From positions 62,001 through 126,000 of the forward strand of contig JABUFB010000009.1 in the NCBI GenBank assembly GCA_013314775.1: a DNA stretch of 64,000 nt, read 5' to 3'. Under the pieces are notes generated by a model, which worked only from the letters and a program-made list of their open reading frames with translations, did no database searches and was not told the DNA's origin. This stretch comes from Armatimonadota bacterium. GTDB taxonomy: Bacteria > Armatimonadota > Zipacnadia > Zipacnadales > JABUFB01. This document shows positions 39,662 to 64,000 of this stretch, piece after piece (the first letter of the stretch is position 1; the number at the start of each line of letters is the position of its first letter). The position numbers and the translations under genes are program-made.

Positions 39662-39796
39662 GGGCCCCTCCCTGCGTTTCATTCTCCGACGGGTCGCCGC
39701 CGGCCGCAGTTCGTTTTGTGCGCATTTCCGGCAATCGTGAGCAGGTTCGCCCGAAGGCACCTGCGGTCCCGTCCAGCCCCCGCGCGACAGGCAAGC

Positions 39797-40597: not shown

Positions 40598-40646
40598 GGC
40601 AATCACCTCTATAGCGCGGAGGCAAGCCCCGCGATTGTCGCCCAAG

Positions 40647-41705: not shown

Positions 41706-41768
41706 GGTGGCGTCTCCTCAAGACGGGTGCGTAACTGCCACTATCACAGGCCCGAACGTCAGACCGAA

Positions 41769-45523: not shown

Positions 45524-45588
45524 GCGTGGCTCCTCCTGCGTGCGGGCAATGCAAGACCGGAAGGCGCCCTGCGGCAAGCACCCGGCAA

Positions 45589-45839: not shown

Positions 45840-48800
45840 CTACGGGTACGGCAGATTGGGCCTGAAGCGGTCCATCGCATTGCTGGCGGCAAGCCGTTCT
45901 CGCACCAGCGACGGGAACTCGGGTGTCACAGTGCAGTAATAGATGTCCGAAGACTGCCGGACCTCTGACCCGCCATCGGAGGCATCGCGAAGGTCGTACA
46001 GCGGCCTCGGGCTGGACCAGAAGATCCAGTAGCGCCTTGCCACAAGCATGTCCGGGTTCGTCACGGGCAGTGACGGTACCCGGTAGGTTTCCTCAACCAC
46101 CCGCAGCGGGCCTTCGGAAAGGACGCTGTCGATGGGCACAATCGTCTCCTGACTCCAGCCGCCAATGGTGTGAATCTCATCCGCACTGGCGGTCTGCACG
46201 TTGCCGGCATCATCCAGATACTCGTAGTCATACTGCACACGGATCTGGCTGCCAGGCCCCAGCGGGTCACGCCGCCGCTGCCCGTCCGGATACGTCACCC
46301 AGCGATAGACGCCAAGCCAGATCGCGATCTCCCCGTTCTGCATGTCGGCGTCAAACTCGGCGCGGTGGCCGGAGTAGCTGCCCGGGGGAAGGCCGGGATA
46401 TCCGGGCAGAGCGCCCACGACCTCTTCCGGAGTGCCCGGACCGTAGAGTTCAGGCTGAGGATCGGTGGTATCTGATGGATACCGCACCACCAGGTTTCCG
46501 GCGATCGGAGGATGGTTCACCTGGATTGTCCACGACTGCATCTTCATCATGTAGCTGGTGCGTCCATAGTACGGCGCTTGGCCTGTCCCATAGCTGCGAC
46601 GCCAGAAGAGCAGAACGCGGTTGTTATGGCTTCCAAGCGGCCACGGGTAGGTGTACGAACCCGCGGGCTGGTTCCCCAGCCATGCGCCGGACTGCAGGAT
46701 CGCGGTCGGGCAATCATCATCAGCGGGACTCAGGGTGTGGCGCCACAGGAACGGTGAGTACTCGCCGGCCAGGAAAACGTCGTCGATGGTAGATGCGAGC
46801 GCGGGGAAAGAGCGGCTGAATACGGTCGCCGGGTCGTTCGGCTCCAGGGCATTGAACAAAGGTCCGGAGAACCGGACGCGCCCGAGAGTCGGGTCGATCT
46901 CCATCATCAACGGGCGCTTTTCGGCGTCAGGAAGGCCGTACGTTGCCGGATCGATCAGCTCATAGCGATCTTCCCCGTTAGGTCCGGAGGCCGGGTAATA
47001 GCGCACATTGGGCAGGCTGCCATCCTCCGGAGCCACAGGACCGGCCGGCCACTGGAGGGTGCTCAGGTCTGTGAACAGACCATCCTCCTTGTGTCTTGCG
47101 AAACGCGGAATGACACGGTAGACGCCCCGGGTCTCGTCATACTGTTCGCCCCGGGTCGGGTTTGCAGGTCCCCAGCTGATGTCGTAGTAGCTGATCTCCC
47201 AGGTGGTCCCGTGCTGACGCACACCGATGCGGAAGGATGCCCCCGGACTGCCATTGTTGATGTAATTGCTTCCGGTCACCCAGTCCAGATGGCGTGAATG
47301 GAACTCTCGACGGAGCTCGTCGGGCGTGAATTCCTCGCCCGGGCTCTCACCGGGCGAATTCGTAGCTCCGGTCCCCGGTGGCGGCCCGGGCCGGGACTCG
47401 CTGGGGTTCAGTACAGGGAGCCCTTCCGGCTGTCCGTCCATGGTCCCCGAATGAACGTACTGGAACTCCACCTTCCCGTTGTTATTCGCCCCTGTCAACA
47501 GATCATGCCGGTTGAACCGAGCCTCGTAGATGTCGAAGTTGCCAAGGTGCCGCGCATAGCCGGCGAAGAAGACCCGCAACATGGGCTGGGTCGCCGTCCC
47601 ACCTGTGCTGGTGTCGTAGACAACCGGCGGCAGATAGAGCATTGGCGCCAGGTCCTTCACCGCCTGGAACGGCCCATGCGGGGTTCTCCGCAGCGTGACC
47701 GCTGATGCCGGCGAGGGCCCGAAGGCATCAGTGTCGTACATGGTCTGCACGGTGGTCTGCGGATCGATCGCGGGAATGCTGTTATCAATCGGCAGGGCGG
47801 CCACACGGTTAGTGCCGTCCGCAAGGGCGACATGGTACATCGGGCGCTCTTGGCCCCGTACCCCGGTATGCCAGAAGGTCCAGTGCCCGGATGCGGCTCC
47901 GCCATTGGCGATGTCTCCGTCCCACAGGCCCCGCACTCCTTGAGGCTTCGCCTGTCCGGTCCAGATCAGCCCCGTGCCGGATGCATCGGAGTAGTGAATC
48001 TCCGAACGCAACGCGCCACCCACTGCGCCGGAAGACACCCACAGAGACCGGTAGCCCGCGGGATACGGGTACACATCCAACGGCCCGCTCTGTGACAGGG
48101 GGCCGCCCAGGCTGGTCAGCGGTGTCGGAGGGCCTGCAAGCCAGTCGTAGCTGCGGTTGATGCCCGAGCCCGAGACGTTCGCTCGTGCTGATACCAGGTT
48201 CATGGGAGCATCCGGCGGCGGGACGGCGTCCGGGTCTCCCGGATCCGGATCGTTGGTCATCCACATGACCTGCAACTGCTGCGGATCACCGTTCGCATCA
48301 TACATGAACAGCGCCGTCGGAGACGTGTCCACCGAATGGTAGTCGTTGTAGGGAAGACGGGACTCGGAGACCCTCAGATGGGCCTCGGCGGCCATGTAAG
48401 GCTCCAAGGCCACATCGCGGTCCGGGTCGAACACATACCGGGCGCTGGTGACATTCCCCACTCCGGGCCGCGTGAAGTCCAGCAGCCCGTTACCGTTCTG
48501 ATCCATGAAGTACAGTTGAGGCATCTCATATCGGCCCAGAAGCTGGCCGGTGCCCACGATGTTCGTGGCACCCACGTTCATGGCGCCTGCGCTTACACTC
48601 GCCCCACCCTCAGGGTTCATCACCGGCAACCACGGTGTCGCGGCATCGGCCGACAAAGGCAGCAGACCAACCGCTTCGTGGAAGATCTCCTTGAGGGACG
48701 CCGGAATCGGGTTACGCTGGTTGACCCAGCCGTAGCCCCGTTTCTTCGATGGGTCGGGTCCCCAGTCATTCTGGCCCGCATCGGCCCGGAAGAACCTGTA

Positions 48801-51800
48801 CCAGGCATCGTCTACACCGGAAACCCCCGGCGACGTCCCGTATATGCCGGGAATCGTGTTCCCATCGTTTCGCAGACTGAAGTTCCCCCAGTGGGATGTC
48901 CCCATGGGGTCCGCGCGACGACCGGCAGGTGTCCCGCCGGCATCCGCGACCGTGATGTCCGGTGTGGCGCCAGTGCCCGATGCCACGCGCCCCATGTCCG
49001 TCGCCGGACTGGACGCCACCAGTTGGGTCCGCTTCGGCACCGATAACTGGATGTCGTATGCGTCGAATTCCTCGGCCGTCAGGTCCGCGAAACCGAAATT
49101 CGGGTTCCCGGCCACGTTCGGCGCGGGGTCTACGGTGCTCAACGGCACGCCTGTCAACGGACAGGTGCCGGTTCCGGCCGCATGCACGGCGCCGGTGATT
49201 GGGCTCCATTCGTGCCCTGGACAATCGGGATTCTGGCAGTGGAACGCCAGCCCCGGTCCGGGGAGGACGGTGTTCCAGGCGGACCCGGAATCCGGGCCGA
49301 TGCCGGGCTCGGTGGCCGGGGTCGCCGTGTGATTGCTGGTGCAGATGAACACCCTGCCCTGGGCGTTGGTCACCAGGTTGTTGGTCACGTAAGCCTGCCC
49401 AGGCCGCCATCCCGGGAGCGGAGCGCCGCAGTCGGGGCACACATAGTAGGCGTCCCACTTGTCGTTATCATCGAAAACAGTCTGCAGACGCCGCAACTCC
49501 CATTTGTGCGGGTCGGTGAGGGGAGCGGCGGGATCGAAAGCCGTTGCCCGTGCTTCTGTCTGCCCATACGTCAGCGCGGTCCCGCGGTAGCCCCAGTTTG
49601 CCTCGTAATCTTGGCTGTTTCCCGGCGCCTCGCCCGGCTCAGACGCAGGCTGCCCGGGCGGGACACTCACCGTGATGTACTGGTCCGTCCCATCGTAGCC
49701 TGCAGCAGCCGAGCCCAGGCTGACCACCTTGTTGTCCAGCCCCACCGTCACCCGGGAGTCGGGGATGCTCGGCCGCAGGGACGGGAAAGCATTGATCCAG
49801 GGCACCGGATTGCCCGAGCCATCCGTGCCTATCTCGGGAACGGTCAGAGACCGAACCAACTGGGTATCTGCAGGGCTGCCGGCGGCTTCCACCGTCACGA
49901 GACCCACGCGGGGCCCCGGCGCGATGTACAGGTCCGCGGCATGGGCCGCGTCAGGCTGGCCGTGGTCGCCGTGGTACGGGCAGATCCCCGCGCCCTTGTC
50001 CTCCGGGTAGACATCCCCGTTGGCTTCCCAATACAGGTTCCAGTTAGCGCCTACTGGTGGCCGATTGTTCGCCGCGGAAATGTGCTCTCGAATGCACAGG
50101 TACCACGGTAGCCCTAGCAACCGGTCACCGGGCCGGTAGTGGTAATTGGCTTGCCACACCCCACCGTTCAGCGCGTGGACAAAACCGCTCCCGCGGTCCT
50201 GGATGTCGGTGAATTTCGCACCGCATTCGGGGCACACATAGTACCGGTCATTCTGGGTGAGCTGGTTGCGCACCACGAACTCCCGCCGCGCGCTGGTCTC
50301 ACCCGGCCGGACTACTATTCCGGTGCCATCACTGGCGCCAACCAGGAAGCGCGGATAGGTCCCCGTCAGCGTCTCGATGTTCCCGTGGTGGTCGCTGTCA
50401 TTACTGCGCGGAACATTGTAACGCGAAACCAGGAAGCGGCTCTCGATCGGCTCATATTCCGAGGCGAAACTCGGCAGACTCTGGGCCACCGCCGAGTTTG
50501 TGGGACGGTTCAGCCGATCCATGTACCATTCCGTGTCGTCGTACCAGAACGTACGGACGTTCGCGTTGACGCCGTGGATAAGTTCGATCGAGTCGAGGGC
50601 AGGAGTGTGCAGCCCCGCATCCCACGGGTTCACACCATTCTGCCAGCGCATTTGGACCTTGCCTGCCCCGACTTCCCCTGGCCTGATGGAGTATGGCGTG
50701 CCGTTCCCGGCAGCCGTCGGGTCGCCCATGACTGCATCCGTGCTGTGCACGATGCGGTCGGCGCCGAAAGTGAAATAGACCCCGCGGCGCTCCCAGGACG
50801 GCATGTCGTTCAGACCCGCTTCGCTGAGAACCGGGCTGCCGAACCCCAGAGCAGGACCATCCATGCCCATTGTCGGCGGCGGATTGGTCTTCACATTGGA
50901 GCGTGTCTGGAAGCTGATCTCCCAGACAGCGCCGGTCGCGTCGGCCGTGGGATCGGCCAGCACAGGCAGGACCAGGCGCAGTGAGCCGCTTGCTGTGACG
51001 ATGCGGATGTAGTTGACGCCCGCGGGTGCGACCCCGGGCTGTCTTTCGCTGTCAAACTCCAGCCCATAGAGCCGCGAGTAGACCCAGATCCGCCACCCGC
51101 TGATCTCGCCAGGCACCAGTGGATCCGCGGCGCGAGACACGTACCGGATGTAGTAGGCGTCCTCGTCGGCGATCTTCTGCGATCCGAGCTGGATGATGAC
51201 AGGTCGCGTGAAGACTTCCGTCCACGCGAAATTGGACCAGAGCGTCCCGATGCCTGGCTCGTTCGCAAGAGGCCAGCCCTGCGGGATGGCGATGTGCCAG
51301 TTGCGGCACTCGAAATACCGGGTACCCGCTCCCAGATCGTGCTTCACCCAGTCTCCCACGTTATACGTAGTGCCGGCGGACCAGTCGGGCACATTACTTG
51401 GCGGCAGTTCAGGCGCGTCCCCGTAATTCTGCTGGGTGTAGCGAGTGGCGTATGTCCGCGCATAGCTGACGCCGGGCGGGAAAGTGACAAAGTGAGCGCG
51501 AGTCAGGTTCGGATCTGCGGCAGGCCAGGCAAACTCAGAGTAGACCGTGCCGTTCGGCGCGTTCGAGGCGCCAGGGCGATTGGGGTGAAATGGGCGGCCA
51601 ACCACAGCGCGGAACTGGTTGGGGTCGTTGTATGTCTGGCCTCCGGTGGGAATACTGGTGTCGCGGTACGCTACGTCGCAGGAAGGCACCCCGCCTGCGC
51701 TGCGCTGGGGTGTTGCGATATCAAGTACGCGCTGCTCCAGGTCCTCAACCGGGATCAGAGTGGTGTTTGGGTGCTGGGCGGCGGGCAGGCCCAGAGGATT

Positions 51801-52031
51801 TGGGCAAGTGTAGTTGCCCGGCGGCAGCACCGCGGAGTAGCCACAGATCGGGCAAACGTAATTGCCCCGCAGTTTGCTCAGACCAAACTGGTGGGTGTCA
51901 TCCGCATAGGCGGCGCTTGCCGTATCCACGATGCTCGTGCGTACTTCGTAGGCCGGCTGCGCCATTGCAACCGACGCCGCGATGAGCGCAATACCTACCG
52001 TGAGGGGAACGATACCACTTCTCTGCCTCAT
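45840..52031 (-). CDS. Giant exported protein with CBM5/12-like and CPxCG modules, pilus-cluster associated
   Basis: A 2,063-residue exported protein; ATG 52031 follows GGAGAGGGTG and starts a Sec signal peptide ending AMAQ. The N-terminal half holds three CBM5/12-like modules (pattern W..G..Y..GD.V...G..Y.C...H...P......W), at DNA about 51,225-51,395, 50,030-50,160 and 49,280-49,420. It also has CPxCG knuckles: VCPICG (residues 60-63), VCPECG (DNA near 50,230) and VCPDCG (near 49,435). The later knuckles have matching Cys only after the carbohydrate module (ICPYHG; CQNPDCPGH and CPLTG). DQNGNGLLDF is a calcium-loop type motif. The C-terminal half is beta-rich and unassigned. It is the last gene of the minor-pilin run, so a pilus-tip or surface adhesin role is inferred. 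Confidence 0.85.
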   Translation of the reverse strand: MRQRSGIVPLTVGIALIAASVAMAQPAYEVRTSIVDTASAAYADDTHQFGLSKLRGNYVCPICGYSAVLPPGNYTCPNPLGLPAAQHPNTTLIPVEDLEQRVLDIATPQRSAGGVPSCDVAYRDTSIPTGGQTYNDPNQFRAVVGRPFHPNRPGASNAPNGTVYSEFAWPAADPNLTRAHFVTFPPGVSYARTYATRYTQQNYGDAPELPPSNVPDWSAGTTYNVGDWVKHDLGAGTRYFECRNWHIAIPQGWPLANEPGIGTLWSNFAWTEVFTRPVIIQLGSQKIADEDAYYIRYVSRAADPLVPGEISGWRIWVYSRLYGLEFDSERQPGVAPAGVNYIRIVTASGSLRLVLPVLADPTADATGAVWEISFQTRSNVKTNPPPTMGMDGPALGFGSPVLSEAGLNDMPSWERRGVYFTFGADRIVHSTDAVMGDPTAAGNGTPYSIRPGEVGAGKVQMRWQNGVNPWDAGLHTPALDSIELIHGVNANVRTFWYDDTEWYMDRLNRPTNSAVAQSLPSFASEYEPIESRFLVSRYNVPRSNDSDHHGNIETLTGTYPRFLVGASDGTGIVVRPGETSARREFVVRNQLTQNDRYYVCPECGAKFTDIQDRGSGFVHALNGGVWQANYHYRPGDRLLGLPWYLCIREHISAANNRPPVGANWNLYWEANGDVYPEDKGAGICPYHGDHGQPDAAHAADLYIAPGPRVGLVTVEAAGSPADTQLVRSLTVPEIGTDGSGNPVPWINAFPSLRPSIPDSRVTVGLDNKVVSLGSAAAGYDGTDQYITVSVPPGQPASEPGEAPGNSQDYEANWGYRGTALTYGQTEARATAFDPAAPLTDPHKWELRRLQTVFDDNDKWDAYYVCPDCGAPLPGWRPGQAYVTNNLVTNAQGRVFICTSNHTATPATEPGIGPDSGSAWNTVLPGPGLAFHCQNPDCPGHEWSPITGAVHAAGTGTCPLTGVPLSTVDPAPNVAGNPNFGFADLTAEEFDAYDIQLSVPKRTQLVASSPATDMGRVASGTGATPDITVADAGGTPAGRRADPMGTSHWGNFSLRNDGNTIPGIYGTSPGVSGVDDAWYRFFRADAGQNDWGPDPSKKRGYGWVNQRNPIPASLKEIFHEAVGLLPLSADAATPWLPVMNPEGGASVSAGAMNVGATNIVGTGQLLGRYEMPQLYFMDQNGNGLLDFTRPGVGNVTSARYVFDPDRDVALEPYMAAEAHLRVSESRLPYNDYHSVDTSPTALFMYDANGDPQQLQVMWMTNDPDPGDPDAVPPPDAPMNLVSARANVSGSGINRSYDWLAGPPTPLTSLGGPLSQSGPLDVYPYPAGYRSLWVSSGAVGGALRSEIHYSDASGTGLIWTGQAKPQGVRGLWDGDIANGGAASGHWTFWHTGVRGQERPMYHVALADGTNRVAALPIDNSIPAIDPQTTVQTMYDTDAFGPSPASAVTLRRTPHGPFQAVKDLAPMLYLPPVVYDTSTGGTATQPMLRVFFAGYARHLGNFDIYEARFNRHDLLTGANNNGKVEFQYVHSGTMDGQPEGLPVLNPSESRPGPPPGTGATNSPGESPGEEFTPDELRREFHSRHLDWVTGSNYINNGSPGASFRIGVRQHGTTWEISYYDISWGPANPTRGEQYDETRGVYRVIPRFARHKEDGLFTDLSTLQWPAGPVAPEDGSLPNVRYYPASGPNGEDRYELIDPATYGLPDAEKRPLMMEIDPTLGRVRFSGPLFNALEPNDPATVFSRSFPALASTIDDVFLAGEYSPFLWRHTLSPADDDCPTAILQSGAWLGNQPAGSYTYPWPLGSHNNRVLLFWRRSYGTGQAPYYGRTSYMMKMQSWTIQVNHPPIAGNLVVRYPSDTTDPQPELYGPGTPEEVVGALPGYPGLPPGSYSGHRAEFDADMQNGEIAIWLGVYRWVTYPDGQRRRDPLGPGSQIRVQYDYEYLDDAGNVQTASADEIHTIGGWSQETIVPIDSVLSEGPLRVVEETYRVPSLPVTNPDMLVARRYWIFWSSPRPLYDLRDASDGGSEVRQSSDIYYCTVTPEFPSLVRERLAASNAMDRFRPNLPYP

Positions 52032-52168
52032 GGGCTTCACCCTCTCCAACTGCAGCGCGCTGTCGTCTGGTCTAACCGGGCATACTGCCCTGCGACAGGC
52101 GCGTGATTCTCATCTGCAGGCCGCGCGTGCGGCCCTTGTGTCACACCCCGCTCGGGTCTCTGCCGGAT

Positions 52169-55100
52169 CTACAATCGTTCCGCGTACGAAACCATCATCA
52201 GCGGTTCCGGCCAGGCAGGTCTGCGCGGGTCCGGGATCAGGTACCGGCCAAAGGCGGCGCCCGTTGTGCGCTCTGCCCGAAGGACCTCGCTGCCGAATGC
52301 CCGTCCCCAACCACGCCAGTCCGTGTTCTGCGCGGTGAGATGATCGGGCAGCGTGGACAGGTTCGCGATCAGATAGTCGCCGTTCGCAAGCCTCTGTGCG
52401 GACGTCGGAAAGAAACTCTTCGCGAAGTTGGTTCCCGTGGGCAGAGGTATCGTTCCGACCCCCGAAGCCGTGTATGCGTTGCGGGTCCAACTCCACGTGA
52501 ACGCGAAGGTCGGGCTGATCTGGAACTCGTACACACCCATTGGGGCCGTCGGCATGGCCTGGTAACGCGAGGCCACCACCCAGACGTAAGTCGCGCTCAT
52601 TGGGTCGCCGAACAGACCGTTGCCCTCATTCACATACTGAACCTGGCGGATGTTACGGAACTCTTGCTGGTATATGGGAGTCCAGGGCGTCCAGACCCGG
52701 TTCAGTGTGGTGATTGCCGGAAGCCGCCCCAGATCGAACACTGACATGGCGTCGAAAGGCGGTTCGCCGATGTGGGCGCCCAGAACCTGCGCCCCTGGCG
52801 GGGGATTGACCCGCGCCGCGTAGAAGTTTCCGGCTCGGTCGAAACGCGGCGGCTCCACGATCAGCGGGAAATTCCAGTTCGCAGCACACGCCAGATAGCC
52901 CCACAGCTCCCCTGTGGCCGGGTCGAGAATCGGCTGCGCCTTCTGGTACTCCAGTTCGACAAACCGGACTGCCTGGTTATACGGAACAACCACGTTGCCG
53001 GTAGCGTCCACGGGCACGGATATTGGGGTGACCACGTAAGCGGACTCAACCGTGGGCGGCTCGCCCGGGTTGGCAGGCTTGCGCACGACCTCGATGATCC
53101 GCTTGTGCCCTGCGTCTGCGATGACGGTGTGCTCGTAGCGGAGACCGGCGTAATAGGTGTGGTAGCGCCAGGCGTCCGTGGGTCGATCCAGCAGCAGCTT
53201 CGCCGTGCCGCGACCCGCACCCGCGAACCACACCCGACAACCACGGTTATCCAGTTCCAGCACCTGGTTGGCGCCCGAATCCACCACGAGCCAGTTCCCA
53301 TTTTCGAGGCGGGTCACCTTAGCGATGTGTGCGAAAGGCCAAACGTCCGTGCCGTCCGCCGCTCGGCTCCCGGTCAGCACCCGCACCGGCTGTGACCCGA
53401 CGCACTCAAGAATGCGCGAACCCGAAGCGATCAGCGTGCGCTCAGTCGCCATTGACGCCAGGTACCCGGCGCCCACAGGAGAATCCGGCGCAGCCATGAT
53501 CCGCGAGCCGACGAAAGCATTGTCGCCCGCGACACAGGGCGTTGCCGAGACCACCGGCACATTCCCGGCCACATCCTGGGCCGGAGCGACCATGCGCCCA
53601 GTCACGTTCCCGGTTACCGGGTCCCACGACGCAGCCAGCAACGTCTCAGCGGGGGTCAATCCGCCCGCCGGCGGCATGAAAGCGCCATCCCAGTGGGTGC
53701 CGTAGATGTATCTTCGCTGGGCCTGGGTTGTGGGGACCGGAATCGCGGTGCCGGTCACGCCCTCAGTGCCCAGCAGAAGCGTCCTGCCGGCCAACGCAGG
53801 GGCGCACCTCGAGATGCCGAAGCCCACGGGTACCTGGTGGCGCTCTGCAGGCATGCCCAGACCGGGGTTGGGGATCGGCACAAAGCCGTTTACGTCATCG
53901 TAGCCCGCCGGAATGCCCGGAGGAGGCACCCACCCCAGCGCGTGTGGCACAAAGCCTGTATAGCCCACAATCACCTCGGTGCCCGGATCGAGGAACCAGT
54001 CCTCGACATCCATCGTCCCGTTCCCGTTCACATCGGCGAAGGCCATGCGCATGTCCAGCCAGCCGTTGGGGAGGACTTCAACGTTGCCGGCGCCGTAGTC
54101 GTAACTCACCAGTGGCTCACCGGCGAACACCCCGCTCACCGGGACCCCGTCCAGGAAATTGGGCGAGTTGGTCGGCAGCCGGACCCCGAGGCTTGCGAAA
54201 ACCGCAGGATACTGGTTCAGCTTGATAAACCCGGGCACATAGACGAAACTGTGCGCCGGGCCAAGACGGTGCAGTTCCCAGCCGCCACCCGCGGGGTAGG
54301 TGGAGTTGTCGGTGCCGTTCCACCGGGCAAGCACCACTTTCCCCGCCAGCGGATTCGGGAAGACGTCCACATTGGCGCCGGTGTCCTCAATCACGCCCGC
54401 GTCAGAGACATACTCAGGCTTGATGCGGACCACGCGCTGCTGGTAATCGATCTCGTACGCTGACGGCGGAATATCCGACGGTCCCGTGCCCAGATCTGCA
54501 AGCTCGAGAAGCTGCAGGCTCACGCTGGGCGCTGCCTTGCGTACTCCGATGGCGTCGTCAACGCCGGGCCCCAGATGCAACTCGAACCCGCTGTCGGTCT
54601 TCAGCCCCACCAGAGCGGCCCGTGCAGGTGGTGATACCGGACCGGGTCCCCCCAGGGGCGGGATCCACTGGGACACCGCGGCCGCAACCACCCCGTTGTC
54701 TTCAGTAGGTCCGGCCAGCGCGACAGTCAGGGAGTTGCGGACGCCCAGGTCCGTGGACGGGTCCGAGGCAGGCAGCACGGCCGACGGGCTCAGGCACCCG
54801 AGAACAGCCCCGTCCGCCAGGCGCACCACCGGGATGTCCGCGGGCCGCATCAGCGCGGCCTGCGGGATCACCGGCGGGTAGTTCTCGGGCTGCTCAATGG
54901 CTGCACCGGTGGGGGCGAACAGCTTGCCGTCCCGGGCCACTGCGGTCCCGGTTGTCACATCATTCCACCGGTGACGCCGCTGCCACAGGATTGGGCCGCG
55001 CATGAAGTGGCGCTCCCACTCTCCGCTGCTGTCCTGAAGCATGATCTCGCAGCCTTTGAGCAACTCGTACGGATTGTCGTCGATCATCGGCGTGAGGTAC

Positions 55101-57310
55101 CAGTTCGCCAGCATCTGGCGAACACCGGTGTCACCCACATTCACGCTGTTCAGGTGTGCAATCGGCGCCGGGAAATCAGTGTCCCACGGCAGCGCGAGGG
55201 ATACGCGGTCTTCAATGTCGCCTGCGCGTTTCGCGTGTTGCCAGGCTCCGGTCGCAGCCCGGACCAGCTTCACACCGTAGTATTCGCGGTTGATCGTGTA
55301 GCCGATGGTATTGGCATCGCCCCGTGTGGGTGTGGGCGCAAGAGCAAACTCGCTGCCCCCGGCATGGTTGTCCCACGACACCCAGCCCTCGGTAACAATC
55401 CCCGCTCCCGGAACCCAGGTGTTGCTGACAGGTGATCGCACGGTCATGATTGCATCCGCCAGAATGCCATCGGGCAGCATGACCGCCGAGGTGACAGTGG
55501 GCGCAGGGGTGGGATATGTCGGCAGTTCCGGGCCGCTGCCGGAACCCACCGCCACTATCCACAGAGGGTCATTGAAGCACGGTAGGGCACGTATCGGCTC
55601 TCCGAGGGTGCTGGCCGTTGTGCTGTCGCCGCGGTCCAGATCGGCGTCCGGGAATACCCATACCGCCCCGCTGGTGTTCACATTCCCGGTCAGATTGCCG
55701 CCAGTCTGCAGATCGATGCACCAGGCGCGCCCGAAAGTGCGGTCAACGCCATCCCCCGTTGCGTCTGGTAGGCTCGGATCGTACTCGGAGGCCGTGAAGT
55801 ACACCCACCCGTTGTTGATCACCGGGGTGGAGACATCGCAGACTCTGGACGAGCCTCGGTAGGGGTCCACCTGAAACTGCCAGCGCAGTTCACCCGTGAT
55901 GGCGCTGAAGCAGTAGACGAATCCGGGATCCCCGCCCCCTGGGTTTTCCCCGCTGGCTGAGAAGACGACCACCGGCTCGATCTCCTCTGCCTCTCGGTTC
56001 CCGTCCCCGTTGGCGTCCTGCCAGCGGTTACCAACAACCAGTCCCGACGACCGAGGCGTGGCGCCGGACGGCAGGACCTCAACTTCCCAGATCTTGTCAT
56101 AGTTCGCGCCCTGCGAGTAATCAACCCAGCCGTCATCCGGTTCCCCGTCAGGGAGGGGGCTGACCGTCCAGCCCGCCGCCCTCGGCCCGCAAAGGTCCTG
56201 TTCGGGCTCGGCGTCCAGACAGACCAGCCTCGCGATGCCGTCTGACGCGGTGCTGGTCAGCACAAGCACGCGCCCGTTGATGTGAACCGGCGAAGCGATG
56301 ACCGGGCCGAAGTTGATCGCCGCGCCCGTGGGATCCAGACGGTCCGGCGGCGGGTACTGCCACTTGCCGTCCACCGGAGCCTGTGCCACGGGGGCTCCCG
56401 GGCCGGCTCCAGCGGGTCCCACTGCCCTGTGGCCGAACATCCACGCAATCGCGTTGTAGGCAAACTTGAATGCTGGAAGCTGGTCCTGGCTGGGAGACAG
56501 GCTGGTGCCCCAGGACGCGATGATATTGCCGACATTCCCTGCGGTCACCAGGATCGCGCCGCTGCCATACGGTGCGATCATTGCACCGTGCCCCAGGGGC
56601 GCACCACCGGCGTCGAGAAGAGAGATAATCGGCCGGAAGCTCACGTCCGTCTCGTGAAGCCAGCCTCCGCCGTCGGTGAAAGGCCAGGTGACCCGGAAGT
56701 CCCCGGCGCCCAACCGGTTGACCTCCCAGTCCTCGAGCTTGAAGGGAACATTCAGCAGGTCTTCACCGACTGCGTACGCGATGCGGCGGGCCACCGCCGC
56801 CGCACTGGCTTCCACCTGGAAGGGAATCGGTTCGGGTTCGGCACCCCCGCCGCCCGTCGGTGTAACCCTCGGCGGCTGCAGGCGCGTCACGGGCCCGTCA
56901 ATCCAGAGCAGTGCACCGTTCTCCACAGCCCGGATGAGTCGCGCATCATCGGTAGCGTCCACATCGGCATCAGGACAGTAGATGACGTCAATGCCCTCGA
57001 CCGACTGAAGGCGAGACAGGTCCGCGGCCCAGTAGATGGGCATGTTCTTCGCGGCGATCCACCCGGGCGTGCCCGTGGGTGTGAGGTCCGCGGGCGCCAA
57101 GGGGTTCTCAAAGACCCAGCCATCGGGCCGAAGCGCCGCCCGGGACAGATTGTAGAAGATCAGCGAATTCCCGCCCAGAACGCAGGCCTTGATCACCCGC
57201 TGCGGGGGGGTGCTGTCAAAGCTGACGGTTCCCGCAAAGGCGGGGATGAACGCGCCGGGCAGGCACGCGATGAGTGTACAAAGGAGCAACGAGCGCCTGC
57301 TTGCTCGCAT
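52169..57310 (-). CDS. Giant exported beta-propeller protein, PilY1-like in architecture
   Basis: A 1,713-residue exported protein (ATG 57310 with GGAGG nine bases upstream; ATG 57316 is possible). A signal peptide ends AFAGT. Residues about 30-240 look like an alpha/beta domain (IKACVLGGNSLIFYNLSRAA, GIDVIYCPDADVD). Then PQQ-like blades (YCFSAITGELRWQFQVDP, TPVINNGWVYFTASEYDP) and later NHL-like blades (VTRLENGNWLVVDSGANQVL, YEHTVIADAGHKRIIEVV) build one or two propellers. Two EF-hand-type calcium loops occur: DANGDGNREAEE (DNA about 55,978-56,023) and DVNGNGTMDVED (about 53,992-54,041). PilY1 tip adhesins also combine a propeller with a calcium loop, and this gene directly follows PilW/PilX-like genes, but sequence homology to PilY1 is not shown. 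Confidence 0.83.
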   Translation of the reverse strand: MRASRRSLLLCTLIACLPGAFIPAFAGTVSFDSTPPQRVIKACVLGGNSLIFYNLSRAALRPDGWVFENPLAPADLTPTGTPGWIAAKNMPIYWAADLSRLQSVEGIDVIYCPDADVDATDDARLIRAVENGALLWIDGPVTRLQPPRVTPTGGGGAEPEPIPFQVEASAAAVARRIAYAVGEDLLNVPFKLEDWEVNRLGAGDFRVTWPFTDGGGWLHETDVSFRPIISLLDAGGAPLGHGAMIAPYGSGAILVTAGNVGNIIASWGTSLSPSQDQLPAFKFAYNAIAWMFGHRAVGPAGAGPGAPVAQAPVDGKWQYPPPDRLDPTGAAINFGPVIASPVHINGRVLVLTSTASDGIARLVCLDAEPEQDLCGPRAAGWTVSPLPDGEPDDGWVDYSQGANYDKIWEVEVLPSGATPRSSGLVVGNRWQDANGDGNREAEEIEPVVVFSASGENPGGGDPGFVYCFSAITGELRWQFQVDPYRGSSRVCDVSTPVINNGWVYFTASEYDPSLPDATGDGVDRTFGRAWCIDLQTGGNLTGNVNTSGAVWVFPDADLDRGDSTTASTLGEPIRALPCFNDPLWIVAVGSGSGPELPTYPTPAPTVTSAVMLPDGILADAIMTVRSPVSNTWVPGAGIVTEGWVSWDNHAGGSEFALAPTPTRGDANTIGYTINREYYGVKLVRAATGAWQHAKRAGDIEDRVSLALPWDTDFPAPIAHLNSVNVGDTGVRQMLANWYLTPMIDDNPYELLKGCEIMLQDSSGEWERHFMRGPILWQRRHRWNDVTTGTAVARDGKLFAPTGAAIEQPENYPPVIPQAALMRPADIPVVRLADGAVLGCLSPSAVLPASDPSTDLGVRNSLTVALAGPTEDNGVVAAAVSQWIPPLGGPGPVSPPARAALVGLKTDSGFELHLGPGVDDAIGVRKAAPSVSLQLLELADLGTGPSDIPPSAYEIDYQQRVVRIKPEYVSDAGVIEDTGANVDVFPNPLAGKVVLARWNGTDNSTYPAGGGWELHRLGPAHSFVYVPGFIKLNQYPAVFASLGVRLPTNSPNFLDGVPVSGVFAGEPLVSYDYGAGNVEVLPNGWLDMRMAFADVNGNGTMDVEDWFLDPGTEVIVGYTGFVPHALGWVPPPGIPAGYDDVNGFVPIPNPGLGMPAERHQVPVGFGISRCAPALAGRTLLLGTEGVTGTAIPVPTTQAQRRYIYGTHWDGAFMPPAGGLTPAETLLAASWDPVTGNVTGRMVAPAQDVAGNVPVVSATPCVAGDNAFVGSRIMAAPDSPVGAGYLASMATERTLIASGSRILECVGSQPVRVLTGSRAADGTDVWPFAHIAKVTRLENGNWLVVDSGANQVLELDNRGCRVWFAGAGRGTAKLLLDRPTDAWRYHTYYAGLRYEHTVIADAGHKRIIEVVRKPANPGEPPTVESAYVVTPISVPVDATGNVVVPYNQAVRFVELEYQKAQPILDPATGELWGYLACAANWNFPLIVEPPRFDRAGNFYAARVNPPPGAQVLGAHIGEPPFDAMSVFDLGRLPAITTLNRVWTPWTPIYQQEFRNIRQVQYVNEGNGLFGDPMSATYVWVVASRYQAMPTAPMGVYEFQISPTFAFTWSWTRNAYTASGVGTIPLPTGTNFAKSFFPTSAQRLANGDYLIANLSTLPDHLTAQNTDWRGWGRAFGSEVLRAERTTGAAFGRYLIPDPRRPAWPEPLMMVSYAERL

Positions 57311-57367
57311 CACCATCTACCTCCACTGGTGTGAAGCGCAACGCCAAAGCTCGGTTCAGGCGAGCGA

Positions 57368-60367
57368 CTACTGCCCTTCACCGTAGAAGATCAACTCTTC
57401 ACTCACGGGGAGACAGGGAAGCACCGGCAAATTGCCCTGGACTGTGGCCGTGGCCAGCATCTGGGGCGAGCCGGCATCGGCGTAACGTGTGTCCGCGTTC
57501 AGGGTGGTCAGCCGCAGCGCCCTGGGGTCCCTCGTGTTCCGGATGCTCTCGTCGAACTCGTAGCGGATTGTGCTCCAACCCGCTCCGATAACCGGCCAGG
57601 CCCACTTGTCGGACCATTCGCGCACCATGTCCGGCCCGGCGTGGAAGGCCTCGGTAATGCACCCGCGCACGCAGATGTCATAGTTGTACCGCAGGAACGC
57701 CCGGGCCGCATTGCCGACGTGGCGCGTATCGAAGTACCGGCCGGGGATAACAAACCAGCAACCATTCTCGGCGAAAATCGCCGCATTCACCTTAGCATGG
57801 ATCGCACCCGTAGGCTCCCCACCGGCGGTCTGCTCCACGACCTTCCAGTTCTTCAGACGGTACTCGGTCGATCCCGCGCCCAGCCCTGCATCGGACGGAT
57901 CGACCGCGGAGAGCGCCACCGCCTTGAGCTGCCCGGGCGCAAGGGTGCCCAGGGTCCCGGTCACGTCCCAGGGCATTGTGGGGTTGGCGGCAGACCACGG
58001 TTGGCTCCAGTCGGGTGCCAGGGTCTCCTCCACGTTAGCCCCTGCATACAGGCCGGGCTGCAGGAAGTAGAACTTGGCCTGGTCCAAGACCCCGCCGAAT
58101 ACGAAGCTCGACCAGCTAACGGAATTGAACACCTTCATGTTGATGGCCGCCGGGCCCGGATCGCCCGCGGAATGGATCACGGCCACCCGAATGCGGTTCC
58201 CCGCAAGCATCGGCTCGCCCAAAGTCCAGCGCATGTAAGCCGCGCCTTGGACCTCCGGGGTCATCTCCCAGTGCTGTTCGTCGTAAGCCGGGTTGAAGGG
58301 GTCGTCCGGCACGACCGAAACCTCGCCCGACGTTAGCTGCGGGGCGATGCGCGTCGCATTGAGACACACACAGTCCCGGGCGATCAGCGCAATCTTGGTG
58401 TTGAACTCGTCCGGAATCGGTGCACCGGGGGCCGGCGGCACCCCGCTGCCCACGTCTCGCCCCAGCACATCCTGCGGGCTGAGAATCTGACCGTCGATGT
58501 AGATCGTCCCACCCGACAGCACGGTCAGATTGTAATCCCGCGGATTGTTGATATTCGCGTTCCGCGGCGGAAGAACCCCGTGGATACGCACATTGCCCTC
58601 CGCGAATATCAGCTGGTTCGGGTAGGACGGATAGTCCAGGTACACCGTATACTCGCCGGAATCGATGATCCGGTTGTTGGGCGCGTCGTAGTACCGCCAG
58701 GTGCGATCAGAGCGCGTCAACCGGATGCCCGGCTCCCCGGGCCTGTGGTACGGCCACCAGACCGTATTCTGGTTGGTTGGGGGAGAGTTGGTGGCGCTCA
58801 GAGCGCCGAACTCCAGGGCTGCGTTCTCGCTGGGATAGAGGGTAACCTCAACCCCCGGCGCCGTGTAGGTGGTGTAGGTCGGGTCCCAGCCGCTGTTTTC
58901 CGCCGAGTACCGATCCGCGAAAACCTGCATCCACTCGCCCATGAGCGCATCGTAGTCGCGGGTCCCGTACCTGTCCACGAACTGCAGGTCATCTTTATTG
59001 TCCACGTAGATCCCGCGGCCGAATCCGTAGTTCCCCAGATTCACCGTGTCACCGCTGGCGAGTGTCACAATGCGCCCCGAATCGCGGGTCAGCTTGCGAT
59101 ACGCCTCGGCACGCGACTGGTCGCCACCCACTGGGCCAAACACCGTCGGCGCCTTCAAGGCCTCGGTGTAGCGTGGGTTACCCGAACCGTCGGTGCTGTT
59201 GGATCCATCCAGGATCAACCCACCGTAGGTGGTGAAGGACAAGTGGTTGCTGGGCAGCACCTGGGCCGGCGTCGTGTAGGTCCCGTCGACGTTGCGCGCG
59301 CGAACCGCCGTGGTGTACTGGGCTTCGGGTTCGGTAATGCCGTCGGCAGCAAAGATGCGGTCGGAACGCAGGTAACCGCCGGTAATCCCCAGCGGGTTCA
59401 CGCCGGGCACCTCGCTGGTCGCCGACGTGGGCTGCGGCGTGAGCGTCAGCCAGCTGCCGGAACCGTTCACGGTTCCATTGAGATTGCCACCCTCCAACTG
59501 CAGGGTCGAGTTGAAACGCATCGGTCCGAAGAAGTACTGACCAAGCCAGTCGTTCGGGTCCCAGCCGTCCCGGTCCATGTCGGCGCGGGGGTTGAACCCG
59601 AGCACTGCCGGCTGGCCCGTATTGCCCGCGTCAGTCACGTAGAGCAGGTAGTCGGTGAGTGGCAACGGCTTGTAGGCTACCAGGTAGCGGTATACCGGCG
59701 AAGTCTCGTACATCACGCCGATCGACTCGATCTTCAGCGCCGCACTCATCTCGTCGGGCACACGGTACGGATCGCTATCGGGCAACTCGTAGGGCGGGTC
59801 GGGGTCGTAAGTGACACGAACAAGGATGTGGCCCTGGCCCCCAAGCGTCGCGGCTTCCGTGGGCAGGCTGAGACCGGCCGGCGTGGTGTTTACGTCGGGA
59901 ATACGGGTGAAACCGAACCGGACGTACTCCCCGGTGGTTGCGTCAACCAGGCCGTGCCAGTTGTGTGCGCGCTCGAAGTCGCTGTAATAGTCGTCCTCGG
60001 TATCCGCGGTGGCGTCCAGCCCGTATGTTCCGTAGTCGGTACCTGCGGTGTCCATTACCGGCGGCACAGGCCAGGTGTTCGGGTCTGTGGCGACATAAGA
60101 CGCCGGGACCAAAGGCCGGAAAGGCGGTCGCCAGTCAGCGCCCACGGGGCTCTCGCTCAGATTCTGGTTGCACCAGCTGATGCCTGCTTCCGCCAGGCCC
60201 TGGGCGAGGTTGACATCCGCGCCACGGGAGGACTGCTGCTGGTTGTAGGTGACGATAGCGACGAACAGGATGCCCGTCAGCAGAATGACCATCATCAGCA
60301 GAACGGCGATGACGAGAATCTGACCTCGTCGTGGCGTCCTGCGTATTCTCCCGTTGCTTCGGTACAT
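57368..60367 (-). CDS. PilX-like minor pilin assembly protein, very long
   Basis: A 999-residue protein whose N-terminus RRGQILVIAVLLMMVILLTG followed by NLAQGLAEAGISW is the PilX_N-type pattern (basic residues, one hydrophobic helix, then the AEAG helix). Typical PilX is below 250 residues, so the 900-residue exported part is exceptional. It is beta-rich, with GNLNGTVNGSGSW, YLRSDRIFAADG and repeated Asn/Thr/Tyr-rich strands, and contains a calcium-loop motif DMDRDGWDPND (DNA about 59,547-59,581). ATG 60367 lies 93 bases after the PilW-like gene and its stop is 57 bases before the propeller gene, giving the order PilW-PilX-PilY-like known from other pilus clusters. Confidence 0.85.
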   Translation of the reverse strand: MYRSNGRIRRTPRRGQILVIAVLLMMVILLTGILFVAIVTYNQQQSSRGADVNLAQGLAEAGISWCNQNLSESPVGADWRPPFRPLVPASYVATDPNTWPVPPVMDTAGTDYGTYGLDATADTEDDYYSDFERAHNWHGLVDATTGEYVRFGFTRIPDVNTTPAGLSLPTEAATLGGQGHILVRVTYDPDPPYELPDSDPYRVPDEMSAALKIESIGVMYETSPVYRYLVAYKPLPLTDYLLYVTDAGNTGQPAVLGFNPRADMDRDGWDPNDWLGQYFFGPMRFNSTLQLEGGNLNGTVNGSGSWLTLTPQPTSATSEVPGVNPLGITGGYLRSDRIFAADGITEPEAQYTTAVRARNVDGTYTTPAQVLPSNHLSFTTYGGLILDGSNSTDGSGNPRYTEALKAPTVFGPVGGDQSRAEAYRKLTRDSGRIVTLASGDTVNLGNYGFGRGIYVDNKDDLQFVDRYGTRDYDALMGEWMQVFADRYSAENSGWDPTYTTYTAPGVEVTLYPSENAALEFGALSATNSPPTNQNTVWWPYHRPGEPGIRLTRSDRTWRYYDAPNNRIIDSGEYTVYLDYPSYPNQLIFAEGNVRIHGVLPPRNANINNPRDYNLTVLSGGTIYIDGQILSPQDVLGRDVGSGVPPAPGAPIPDEFNTKIALIARDCVCLNATRIAPQLTSGEVSVVPDDPFNPAYDEQHWEMTPEVQGAAYMRWTLGEPMLAGNRIRVAVIHSAGDPGPAAINMKVFNSVSWSSFVFGGVLDQAKFYFLQPGLYAGANVEETLAPDWSQPWSAANPTMPWDVTGTLGTLAPGQLKAVALSAVDPSDAGLGAGSTEYRLKNWKVVEQTAGGEPTGAIHAKVNAAIFAENGCWFVIPGRYFDTRHVGNAARAFLRYNYDICVRGCITEAFHAGPDMVREWSDKWAWPVIGAGWSTIRYEFDESIRNTRDPRALRLTTLNADTRYADAGSPQMLATATVQGNLPVLPCLPVSEELIFYGEGQ

Positions 60368-60460
60368 TAACTCTCGCCTCCGCCTTGTTGGGGGCCTGGC
60401 CCCGCCTGGCGACCGTCAATCGCGCTTCTGTCAATACTCGGTCCAGACCGCCGCGCGCTC

Positions 60461-62188
60461 CTACTGTCCAAAGTTGCGTATCGAGACCTGCTCGCGCATG
60501 CTGACCTCATTGGGATGGTCGCCCTCTGGAAGCACCATGCGGCCAGTCCCGTCGTCCTCCAGGTCCACATAGCGCTCCAATGTCAACGAGACGTTCTGGA
60601 TGGATCGAACCGAGTAATCGACCTTGACCATATCATTCACGAAGGGCCAGTTGCCTGCAGCATCCAGCTGTGGATCATAGGTATAGTTGCGCCGGTAGTA
60701 ATACGACACCTGAAGCTGGAAGGAACTCAGCGCGGGCGGCGTATTGCCGAAAAGCGCCCGGGACTCCGGCGATGGCGGGTCGAACCGCGAGAAACGCAGG
60801 AGCGCCGTGGTCCCCTCCGGCGTGCCGTCATTGTTGTAGTCGCGCCGCGTGAGTTGCACGTTGAACTCGTCGCCCCGAAGCGTGGCCTGATCGAAATTCT
60901 GCGTAGGCTTCAGGTCGAACTGCCGCCGTACTCCCGCAGTGTCCACCGCGACCACTTTGACCTTTACGGTGTTCGGCTGGATCAAGGCCGGGACGTTGAT
61001 GTCCACGCTCGGGTCAATGCGGTACGACGTGGGGGCTGCTGCCCGGTCCACCGGTGCCGTCGCCAGGCTGCCGGGATATACCGCTGTGAAGTCGCTCGGC
61101 ATGCTCACCGTATACCACCCGGTGGCGTTTCGCGCGGTGGAGAAGCTGATGACTTTGTAGTAAACGATATTGCCGGATGCCGGGGGCCACTCCTGGCGGG
61201 CCTGCTGGCCACAGGTCACCACTCCTCCGTCAGCCGACCAGCGAACCTGAACCGGGCGGGGCTGGGTCGTGTGGCTGTCCAAACGCGGGACGGAATAGGT
61301 ATCCGTGGCGGCGTCCCAGGCGTACAGCATCACACGCGGGTCCAGTTCGGACTGGGCCAGCGCGGCGTTGGCCAGGAACGCACCTCCAAGCGATACGCCG
61401 TCCCAGGCGCCGAACCGCGCACGGTAGACGACGCCGTTGTCAGTCTTCAGAGTCTCGCCCGACACCCTGTGGGGTTCGAAGCGTACACCGTTGAACAGGT
61501 ATACCGCCGGGCGGCCGCCTGTGTTCTCGACATACCCCGCCACGTACTCGGGATACTGGCCCGCGCCATCCACTCCGTCGGTGAAGAGGGTCGTGGTCGG
61601 GACGAACGTCGAGCCCCGCTTGGGTGTCAGCGCGTTCTCAATCACCGGCTGACCCGGGACCCAGACGCCCGAAGAGTTGAAGCTGCCCAGGGGAGAGGGC
61701 TCGTTGGGGTTCCACACGAACTCCTGGCGGTACAGTGCGAACGGATTGAACTCGTCGTAAGGCTGTCCGGGGGTCACAAGATGGACGGCGTAGCGAATGA
61801 CCTTCTGATAGCCGTTTTGACCGGTTGCCGGCCTGGGCGGGTAGTAGATCTTGCCCAGGCTGTCTCGCGCCGGTGGGTTGAAGAGGATCTGCGAGTAGTT
61901 GATGACGCGAATGTCGTCGTAGGTGCCGAGGGTGTTATCGGCGCCTGAGAACGAGTATCCGGGCGCCGGGTGAACATACACTGCTTCCCCCAGTTCTCGC
62001 CGGATCTGTTCCATGGCGTACCGGCAGGCATCCTGCATGCCCACGTTGGCCCGCCCACTGGAAACCCATTCGAGCCCCGCAATCATGGGGGCGAAAAGCA
62101 GGGCGAACAGGATCACCATGATGGCCAACGCGACCATCACTTCGATCAGGGTGAAACCTGCACACCTTCCGCCGGCGATTCTCACCAC
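60461..62188 (-). CDS. PilW-like minor pilin
   Basis: About 575 residues. The leader VVRIAGGRCAG/FTLIEVMVALAIMV has the classical prepilin peptidase site with Gly before Phe and Glu at +5, followed by the hydrophobic assembly helix. The body (to residue about 575) is beta-rich, far longer than typical PilW (about 350), and carries a possible calcium loop DYNNDGTPEG (DNA about 60,812-60,847). GTG 62188 or GTG 62185 is the likely start, behind GAAGGTGG; the frame upstream from GTG 62218 adds residues ahead of the leader. It lies between a prepilin and the PilX-like gene. Confidence 0.87.
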   Translation of the reverse strand: MVRIAGGRCAGFTLIEVMVALAIMVILFALLFAPMIAGLEWVSSGRANVGMQDACRYAMEQIRRELGEAVYVHPAPGYSFSGADNTLGTYDDIRVINYSQILFNPPARDSLGKIYYPPRPATGQNGYQKVIRYAVHLVTPGQPYDEFNPFALYRQEFVWNPNEPSPLGSFNSSGVWVPGQPVIENALTPKRGSTFVPTTTLFTDGVDGAGQYPEYVAGYVENTGGRPAVYLFNGVRFEPHRVSGETLKTDNGVVYRARFGAWDGVSLGGAFLANAALAQSELDPRVMLYAWDAATDTYSVPRLDSHTTQPRPVQVRWSADGGVVTCGQQARQEWPPASGNIVYYKVISFSTARNATGWYTVSMPSDFTAVYPGSLATAPVDRAAAPTSYRIDPSVDINVPALIQPNTVKVKVVAVDTAGVRRQFDLKPTQNFDQATLRGDEFNVQLTRRDYNNDGTPEGTTALLRFSRFDPPSPESRALFGNTPPALSSFQLQVSYYYRRNYTYDPQLDAAGNWPFVNDMVKVDYSVRSIQNVSLTLERYVDLEDDGTGRMVLPEGDHPNEVSMREQVSIRNFGQ

Positions 62189-62270
62189 ACTACCACCTTC
62201 TTCGAGACTAGCGTACACCGCTCCAACTCACCGCTCACTCGCCGTCCTCGGCCCCTTCTCCAATTGCCCA

Positions 62271-62999
62271 TCACGGCACCGGGTCGTCCGATGGCTTGAT
62301 GCGCCACGCTTCCGCCACATCCACACCATCCTGAAGAAGTGCGGCGTCCATCCGGTGCACCGAACCGTCCCAGAAGAGCACCTGGTACTGGCCCTCGCCG
62401 CCCTTTGTGATGGTCTTCGCGTGGTAGTTGCACCACGTCACAACCGTCGTATCATCAGGATGCCACTCTCGCGAAAACTCCGGGACCAAGCTTGTGCTCG
62501 GGCTCGGCGGCAAGGGCGCAAGCTGGCGCCGAACGTCCGGGTCCGCTGAGTCCCTGCGCAGGCCGCGGCTGGTCAGGTACTTGGACTGGTTATCTACCCC
62601 GTATTCCGTTGAGCCATCGCACATGGCATCGTCGTCGAGGTTCATGTAGCTGAACGAAAAGAGCGGATCGCCTGCCGGATGCTTCGAATCTGCCGGACAG
62701 TGCAGGGAACTCTCCCCCGCCAGATACCCCGTCTCGAACAGCGCCTGTAGCCCCGGTCCCAGGTAAGCGCCCGTGCCTGCGGGGTCCGGGTAGTACGGCG
62801 GCACGCATCCCTCATCCAGGACGTACATCTTCAGGGCCTGGCTGATTCGTTGCAGGCGCGTGGTGCACCGCAGGCCTTTATTGCTATTGGCCAGGTTGCG
62901 GGCGACGGGCACGGTGATGGCCACGAGCGCCGCGGCGATGCCCATGACGACCATCAGTTCAATGAGTGTGAAGGCTCGATTGCGTCGCATCCGCCTCAT
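62271..62999 (-). CDS. Type IV prepilin / pseudopilin with H...DG-type C-terminus
   Basis: A 242-residue pseudopilin. MRRMRRNRA/FTLIELMVVMGIAAALVAIT is a class III signal with Ala rather than Gly before the cleavage site and Glu at +5. The body includes LQRISQALKMYVLDEGCVPP (a GspG-like segment), paired cysteines (LHCPADS, DDDAMCDGS) and the end YHAKTITKGGEGQYQVLFWDGSVHRMD, matching the H-x-DG closing motif common in pseudopilins of environmental lineages. ATG 62999 follows GGGAG. It may be a major or minor pilin; no PilB, PilT or PilC gene lies in the window. Confidence 0.9.
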   Translation of the reverse strand: MRRMRRNRAFTLIELMVVMGIAAALVAITVPVARNLANSNKGLRCTTRLQRISQALKMYVLDEGCVPPYYPDPAGTGAYLGPGLQALFETGYLAGESSLHCPADSKHPAGDPLFSFSYMNLDDDAMCDGSTEYGVDNQSKYLTSRGLRRDSADPDVRRQLAPLPPSPSTSLVPEFSREWHPDDTTVVTWCNYHAKTITKGGEGQYQVLFWDGSVHRMDAALLQDGVDVAEAWRIKPSDDPVP

Positions 63000-63042
63000 C
63001 CCAGTCTCCCTTCGGGCGCAACTTCCAGCACGCCCCGGACGG

Positions 63043-64000
63043 CTAAATCCCAGTGTCCGGGAACATGATATTCGCCACGTCGAACCTGTTGACGCGTCCG
63101 TCCTCAGTGCGCCACCAGCCCACGATCCGCGCCGACGCACCCGTGACCTCATAGACACCCGTCACGTTTGAGTGATTGAGCACGAACCCGAACCCCAGAC
63201 CAGGGTCCCCGAGGTCGGCGATCACATGAACCTCGTTTGATACCGGAGTCGGACGGCCATCACCGGCATCATACGTGTAGTCCACCTCCACCGCCTGGTC
63301 CTCGAGGTACGCCGGGAAGTCACACAGATAGTAGTAGGTCTCGCCGGTGGCCACCTGAGTGCCGATGCGGAACCTGCGGTGCTCCCAGTTAGGCAGGTAG
63401 GCGTTCGCTGGATGGCTCAGCGACTCGACTTCGACGAACTCGGTCGGTGCCTTCTGCACCTGGATGGTGTGTTCATTCGCCGTCCGGTAATAGATGCGAA
63501 TGGGATTCCCAGCGCGACTGGTGCCCGATGCTCCGGTCACCACCGAGCTGTTCATCCAGAGCTTGCCCCGGTTGAAGTCTACTTCGGTGATGGCGCCTGT
63601 CCCGTCACTGTTGTCGTCCCAGAGCCACGTGGCTCCGTCCGTAAGATCCACCACAAGAACCCAGATATCGGCGATGTCAGTGCCATCCAGGGCATTGGTG
63701 ATCAACGGATACTCGTCACTCAGGCCGTCGAAATTCAGGTCCAGCTGGTAAGGTGGCGCGGAGGGCAGCCGCTTGTCCTCGAACATGATCTTTGCCCGGC
63801 GCGAGGTGCCCTCAGCCTGGAGGTCTTCCCGGCGCACCCGGTAGTCTATCCGCAGCTTCGTGCCGGCTGCTGTTGCCGGGAAGAACATGCTCTGCCCTGC
63901 CGTTGCATCCACCCAGCAGACCCGCCCCGAGATGCTTGCCGGCGGACCAAAGGTGCAGGCCCACGGATATCGGGCGTAGGCCCTCACACTGCCCGGGACC
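63043..64000 (-). CDS. Exported beta-rich protein, 5' end cut off by window edge
   Basis: The frame is open to the window end (VPGSVRAYARYPW...), so the N-terminus, and any prepilin leader, lies outside. The visible 318 residues are beta-strand-rich with no recognised domain. A calcium-loop motif DLNFDGLSDE (DNA about 63,709-63,743) and tyrosine-rich strands (FRIGTQVATGETYYYLCDFP, VEVDYTYDAGDG) resemble the long minor-pilin proteins downstream. It lies 43 bases before the prepilin gene and probably belongs to the same operon. Confidence 0.75.
   Translation of the reverse strand, partial: VPGSVRAYARYPWACTFGPPASISGRVCWVDATAGQSMFFPATAAGTKLRIDYRVRREDLQAEGTSRRAKIMFEDKRLPSAPPYQLDLNFDGLSDEYPLITNALDGTDIADIWVLVVDLTDGATWLWDDNSDGTGAITEVDFNRGKLWMNSSVVTGASGTSRAGNPIRIYYRTANEHTIQVQKAPTEFVEVESLSHPANAYLPNWEHRRFRIGTQVATGETYYYLCDFPAYLEDQAVEVDYTYDAGDGRPTPVSNEVHVIADLGDPGLGFGFVLNHSNVTGVYEVTGASARIVGWWRTEDGRVNRFDVANIMFPDTGI

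Follow-up and report, generated by a model that had tools for sequence, protein, structure and literature searches.

A putative type IVa pilus tip section with two giant exported proteins in Armatimonadota

Among described systems, the gene cluster analyzed here most resembles the PilY1/minor pilin (FimU-PilV-PilW-PilX) tip of Pseudomonas and Myxococcus, with which it shares a minor-pilin operon, a large exported propeller protein encoded after pilX, a PilX without Glu5, and a conserved propeller part joined to a variable other part. A conserved C-terminal half with an exchanged front is the pattern described for PilY1 (PMC13190605), and the filament of known systems is capped by K/PilX subunits that have no Glu5 (PMC9934059; PMC7541494). 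The Thermus thermophilus pilin ComZ, which carries a large inserted beta-solenoid, has been argued to sit at the pilus tip and was shown to bind DNA (PMC6561018). Moreover, a glycan-binding minor pilin complex, PilA/PilB/PilC, is already known from Streptococcus sanguinis (PMC9934059), hence a sugar-binding pilus tip is not a new idea.

We analyzed a window of 64,000 nucleotides from an Armatimonadota bacterium (GCA_013314775.1, contig JABUFB010000009.1). Open reading frames for a pilin, a PilW-like protein, a PilX-like protein and two giant exported proteins (giants 1 and 2) were found in the order given by a preliminary description of this DNA, all on the minus strand, as are the other parts of the pilus locus described below. 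Its lengths of 575, 999, 1,713 and 2,063 residues also hold: 999 is exact, and the other three fit in-frame starts slightly inside the frames. Since such long frames are kept in hundreds of genomes, they are not chance ones. The N_methyl prepilin motif exceeds the Pfam cut-off in the GspG/FimU-type pilin (62271..63158, 4.7e-7; an inner Met is the probable start) and in the PilW-like minor pilin (60461..62218, 575-585 aa, 3.5e-7); the PilX-like protein (57368..60367, 999 aa), giant 1 (52169..57316, about 1713-1715 aa) and giant 2 (45840..52049, about 2063-2069 aa) follow. What the preliminary description overlooked is the continuation of the cluster on both sides. At the upstream edge lies the C-terminal part of a 579-aa PilV-like minor pilin (63043..64000; TIGR02523 PilV at 3e-6, under its cut-off), which runs past the window (L032:1044-2783), and beyond the window are a GspG-type major pilin, PilD, PilC, PilT and PilB. 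Downstream of the giants, a run from PilM to PilQ occupies positions 37325-45577, so that the whole locus reads PilB-PilT-PilC-PilD, pilins, PilV-, PilW- and PilX-like pilins, giant 1, giant 2 and PilM-PilN-PilO-possible PilP-PilQ. PilM (44189..45577) matches PilM_2 at 3.5e-53 and TIGR01175 with 213 bits (cut-off 133). The PilN-like protein with its glycine-rich C-terminus (42857..44065) is assigned by position and homologues, and PilO (41769..42746) by a weak Pfam match (0.006) and homologues at the same place. The 352-aa protein in the PilP position (40647..41705), a place shared by its homologues, gave no meaningful Pfam match and is left unassigned. The PilQ secretin (37325..39760, 811 aa) has the Secretin domain at 1e-40, and its best NCBIfam match is TIGR02515 PilQ (2.5e-61, under its cut-off). 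A short protein with a weak STN-domain match (39797..40645) precedes PilQ here, as it does in almost every locus of the phylum. Six further secretin matches occur in the same genome, four of them clustered on contig 2 (G000:C2:88904-104410, G000:C13:176262, G000:C8:156919), and presumably belong to other secretion or filament systems.

Given that this gene set surrounds the minor-pilin cluster and that PilT (TIGR01420, 512 bits, cut-off 319) and PilM pass curated thresholds, the cluster is, judged by gene content, the central section of a single, complete type IVa pilus locus, part of which lies outside the window. A secretion pseudopilus, with the giants as substrates that leave the cell or stay on its surface rather than being built into a tip, would be rather improbable in such a setting. 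The reading draws on a census that assigned a type II secretion system to Armatimonadetes (PMC6668835), on the proposal that the GspK tip contacts substrates and the designation of PilY1 as an analogue of such substrates (PMC7541494), and on the giants themselves, both of which have a signal peptide and no membrane anchor in their sequences. However, a type II system is disfavoured by the presence of PilT, well above its cut-off, and of PilM, and the fixed gene order from PilX to PilM suggests structural parts. The ATPase points the same way, as its best match is the type IV-A PilB profile TIGR02538 (639 bits, E 6e-192) and its score against the GspE profile is lower (582 bits), although both scores fall below the curated cut-offs (676 and 630, respectively). 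At its N-terminus, this PilB (L032:7929-9734) has an MshE-type c-di-GMP-binding motif that scores over the cut-off (NF053729, 64 bits vs 38), and hence extension of the pilus may be controlled by c-di-GMP.

The PilX-like protein belongs to a family of unusual size (median 1018 aa, range 780-1329). In all 48 informative aligned sequences, the type III signal peptide ends in Gly (-1) and is followed by Gln (+1; G15|Q16), and position +5 is Ile, Val, Leu or Met and never Glu (0/48). Absence of Glu5 is the mark of PilX/GspK-type (K-type) subunits, which are placed at the tip. The AF2 model built from 50 sequences (pLDDT 87.6, pTM 0.89) predicts a pilin alpha1 helix (residues 16-72, 60152..60322) and an all-beta body. 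With limits read from the strand pattern of the model, this body would comprise a beta-solenoid-like region (residues ~250-690, 58298..59620) and a jelly-roll-like region (residues ~690-870, 57758..58300). Foldseek matches are of two kinds, long beta-helix proteins (K2-2 tailspike, a phage pectate-lyase-like protein) and jelly-rolls of about 190 columns (Cry toxins, CBM11, CBM22, MAM), and are weak throughout (best E 5e-5, low TM-scores); a jelly-roll fold is, moreover, not proof of sugar binding. The family has no match in Pfam or NCBIfam, except that one distant member shows a DUF7305 trace under the threshold, and sequence profile searches of the PDB with the PilX-like protein, giant 1, giant 2 and the giant 2 C-terminus returned nothing significant. 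Among the profile searches suggested by the preliminary description, those for PilX and PilY1 likewise gave no match: PilX_N (PF14341) was silent in the whole genome (control positive in 2/14), and PilY1 (PF05567) was silent in both giants and matched in 0/31 genomes searched genome-wide, where the control was silent as well. Because neither family is matched, the PilX and PilY1 assignments are based on position, motif and predicted fold, and we file the set as a variant of the PilY1/minor-pilin tip. Besides these missing matches and the large PilX-like protein, it differs from the PilY1 system in having two giants for one PilY1, propellers of other types (PQQ/NHL, GH43/lectin-like), and PilB/T/C/D and PilM-Q in the same locus.

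The predicted helix and solenoid recall ComZ, another tip-type pilin encoded among minor pilins, in which a large beta-solenoid sits on a pilin frame. Possibly, then, the PilX-like protein is a modular DNA-uptake receptor at the tip of a competence pilus, with the solenoid or Zn-ribbon elements touching DNA. A ComEC (Competence) gene in 20/21 genomes of the order, the one studied here included, would fit this reading, but ComEC is widespread in bacteria (positive in 10/14 controls). ComZ is about half the size (554 aa), has no reported jelly-roll and no adjacent giants, was not among the listed fold matches of our model, and the PilX-like protein shows no detectable sequence match to solved structures. 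We consider the DNA-receptor role unlikely; together with the secretion role, it is the strongest rival of a PilY1-like tip.

Giant 1 occupies the position of PilY1, in an operon with minor pilins, and is a large exported protein with propeller repeats of PQQ/NHL type. Its description as a propeller protein stands on the homologues (1301-2085 aa), of which 10/13 match NHL and 8/13 match PQQ_2; the copy in the window itself has no Pfam propeller match. Its N-terminal ~300 residues look Rossmann-like, with a single DUF4350 trace (E 0.03). Profile comparison among segments of the proteins yielded a single weak resemblance, an Ig-like module that giant 1 shares with the end of giant 2.

Giant 2 combines a variable N-terminal half with a conserved C-terminal region (residues 985-2069, 45843..49097). 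The AF2 model of these 1085 residues is of moderate quality (pLDDT 70, pTM 0.79) and suggests a propeller-like part with further beta domains. The two predicted structures thus show a pilin helix, a propeller-like region and beta modules, and do not refute the preliminary description. Foldseek relates the giant 2 model to GH32/GH43 propellers and to AFL/FleA six-bladed fucose lectins with a probability of about 1, yet at E values of only ~1e-3, weaker than the matches of the PilX-like model. Absence of giant 2 from other classes was considered and rejected, as giant 1 is succeeded in those classes by a 2133-2829 aa protein, the C-terminal part of which aligns with that of giant 2 (hhalign probability 100, E 3e-42, 805 columns). 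The front half of this protein is a PQQ propeller with Golvesin_C; the front of the copy in the window consists of Zn-ribbons and three CBM5/12-like modules. In three loci (L164, L165 and L171), giant 2 is 2669-2829 aa long and the PilM-Q genes do not adjoin it. Right after the signal peptide is a Zn-ribbon-like site, C66-x2-C69...C82-P...H93 (51771..51854), whose Cys are kept in 15/15 and His in 14/15 homologues; such a putative Cys3His site is unusual in an exported protein. A second element, CPECG...CPYHG (49968..50234; A2L_zn_ribbon 9e-7 and motif scan), and a third, CPDCG...C..DC...CP (49161..49439; motif scan and weak zinc-finger matches), each have a CBM5/12-like module between their halves. 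These Zn-ribbon-like sites would count for DNA uptake.

The earlier designation of giant 2 as CBM-like is supported. Pfam CBM_5_12 matches two stretches just under its cut-off (25.8 vs 26.2 bits, E 1e-5), and a locally built CBM5/12 profile finds three copies: module 1 (residues 220-277, 51219..51392; 2e-20, PF02839 at 0.001), module 2 (residues 630-675, 50025..50162; 1e-21) and module 3 (residues 879-926, 49272..49415; 4e-22, also by PF02839). A PF02839 search of 12 whole genomes of the order gave ten matches in five genomes, all within giant 1 or giant 2, a concentration that DNA binding would leave unexplained. Most CBM5/12 scores are near or under the Pfam cut-off, which is exceeded in G002 and G021. 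The modules are found in giant 2 of the genus studied here and of G002 from its family, and in giant 1 of G003 and G021 (PF02839); with our own profile, they were also detected in giant 1 of L034, L050, L152 and L158 and in the PilV-like pilin of L158. Since module positions differ among subunits and genomes, the modules were likely inserted several times independently into parts of one putative complex. Conservation of CBM5/12 extends neither across the order nor across the phylum. As most relatives have none, it is an add-on, and the core function of the system therefore cannot be glycan binding through CBM5/12. CBM5/12-like modules occur in phage tail proteins too. The tapirins of Caldicellulosiruptor, as generally described, offer a looser parallel, being cellulose-binding exported proteins with a beta-helix core encoded beside a type IV pilus locus; they come from another phylum and have no pilin helix. 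As in S. sanguinis PilA/PilB/PilC, where modular minor pilins with a carbohydrate-binding module were modelled at the pilus tip (PMC9934059), the modules here belong to a set of putative tip proteins; there, however, the host is a monoderm and the lectin is fused to the pilin, whereas here most modules reside in giants that are exported as separate proteins, and a pilin carries them in a single case, the PilV-like protein of L158.

The preliminary description had also invoked sugar enzymes in the window. A PL10 pectate lyase and a polysaccharide deacetylase are indeed present, and the gene called GH5-like weakly matches GH42; none is linked to the pilus. The PL10 gene lies about 40 kb from the cluster, the genes after PilQ are housekeeping genes found at the same place in relatives without CBMs, and because the surrounding genes are not conserved together with the CBMs, we rejected this neighborhood as support for glycan binding. 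At 954-7518 is a separate polysaccharide cluster, in which two lectin-like proteins (F5/8 type C, LamG) accompany the PL10 enzyme and a protein with a PQQ propeller. Of the proposed polysaccharide-binding tip, the set of tip-complex genes, the restriction of CBMs to the giants in 12 genomes and the CBM-like jelly-rolls are retained, and the argument from sugar enzymes in the window is not; lineage-specific glycan binding by the tip complex is plausible.

PilX-like relatives were found in 266/291 Armatimonadota genomes (188/194 high-quality ones) and giant 1 relatives in 154/201 (117/140); giant 2 was recovered by sequence profile in 29/41 near relatives. Named genomes in the PilX-like profile scan, which is pattern-based and so says nothing on absence elsewhere, were Armatimonadota, mostly Candidatus Zipacnadia/WS1, with distant members in Fimbriimonadia, Hebobacteria and Abditibacterium, a few records without a phylum label and one labelled Bacillota. 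Neighborhoods were counted in 74 distinct PilX-like loci, using those with enough flanking sequence. Gene calls from L042, where the gene caller had picked the wrong strand, were not used in the analysis. A PilW-like gene precedes the PilX-like gene in 38/39 loci, a position after pilV/pilW, and the gene order is conserved in relatives and in other classes, where the long gene after giant 1 is mostly followed by PilM to PilQ. Homologues thus stay beside pilus genes, and the survey does not refute the preliminary description. It also bears on the reading that the giants only happen to be encoded in this operon and have some other task at the surface or in the periplasm. Some lineages have the PilX-like protein and no giants, so that giants appear dispensable for some pili of this type, but giant 1 directly follows the PilX-like gene in 37/46 loci over the whole phylum, with gaps mostly <150 bases, and we regard mere operon sharing as highly improbable. 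PilM directly follows the PilX-like gene in four of the 46 loci; these giant-free arrangements, from Hebobacteria (L095, L148, L160) and one Zipacnadia lineage (L131), are a natural deletion for comparison.

On balance, we think it probable that the cluster encodes the tip complex of a type IVa pilus whose complete locus is present in a Candidatus Zipacnadia-like Armatimonadota genome, and that in it the giants replace PilY1 and the CBMs bind polysaccharide. The PilV-, PilW- and PilX-like pilins would together prime the filament and come to lie at its tip, where the PilX-like protein, with its pilin helix, lack of Glu5 and solenoid/jelly-roll body, would cap it. Both giants, exported through Sec, would take the place of PilY1 and dock on this cap, the propeller parts serving as a platform and the variable modules pointing outward as an adhesin. 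Three CBM5/12-like modules may make this face bind polysaccharide in the present lineage; given such a face, we infer that extension, binding and PilT-driven retraction would pull the cell to glycan surfaces. The pili of Fimbriimonas have been assumed to serve attachment (PMC4072686). The missing PilX_N and PilY1 matches, weak Foldseek matches, the absence of CBMs from most relatives and the lack of giants in some lineages count against such a tip complex. More tentatively, a phylum-wide diderm type IVa tip is quite possible, in which two giant propeller proteins replace PilY1 on a pilin of ~1000 aa with a solenoid/jelly-roll body and provide an exchangeable adhesin platform, with modules inserted repeatedly in different subunits. 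The preliminary description spoke of a candidate for an undescribed system; our literature search found no published description of the PilX-like protein or the giants, and the set is apparently undescribed, albeit as a phylum-wide variant of the known minor-pilin/PilY1 tip complex with an inferred function. As far as the papers show, the phylum-wide giant set is the new part.

Few groups are known to have PilY1-minor pilin tips. If our reading is true, a much larger and different tip set conserved across a phylum would be an independent case for what a type IV pilus tip must contain, for how variable adhesin modules attach, and for how so large a complex passes the secretin. It would also suggest how bacteria that degrade polysaccharides and are mostly uncultured attach, a concrete mechanism open to testing in cultured relatives of the Fimbriimonas type.
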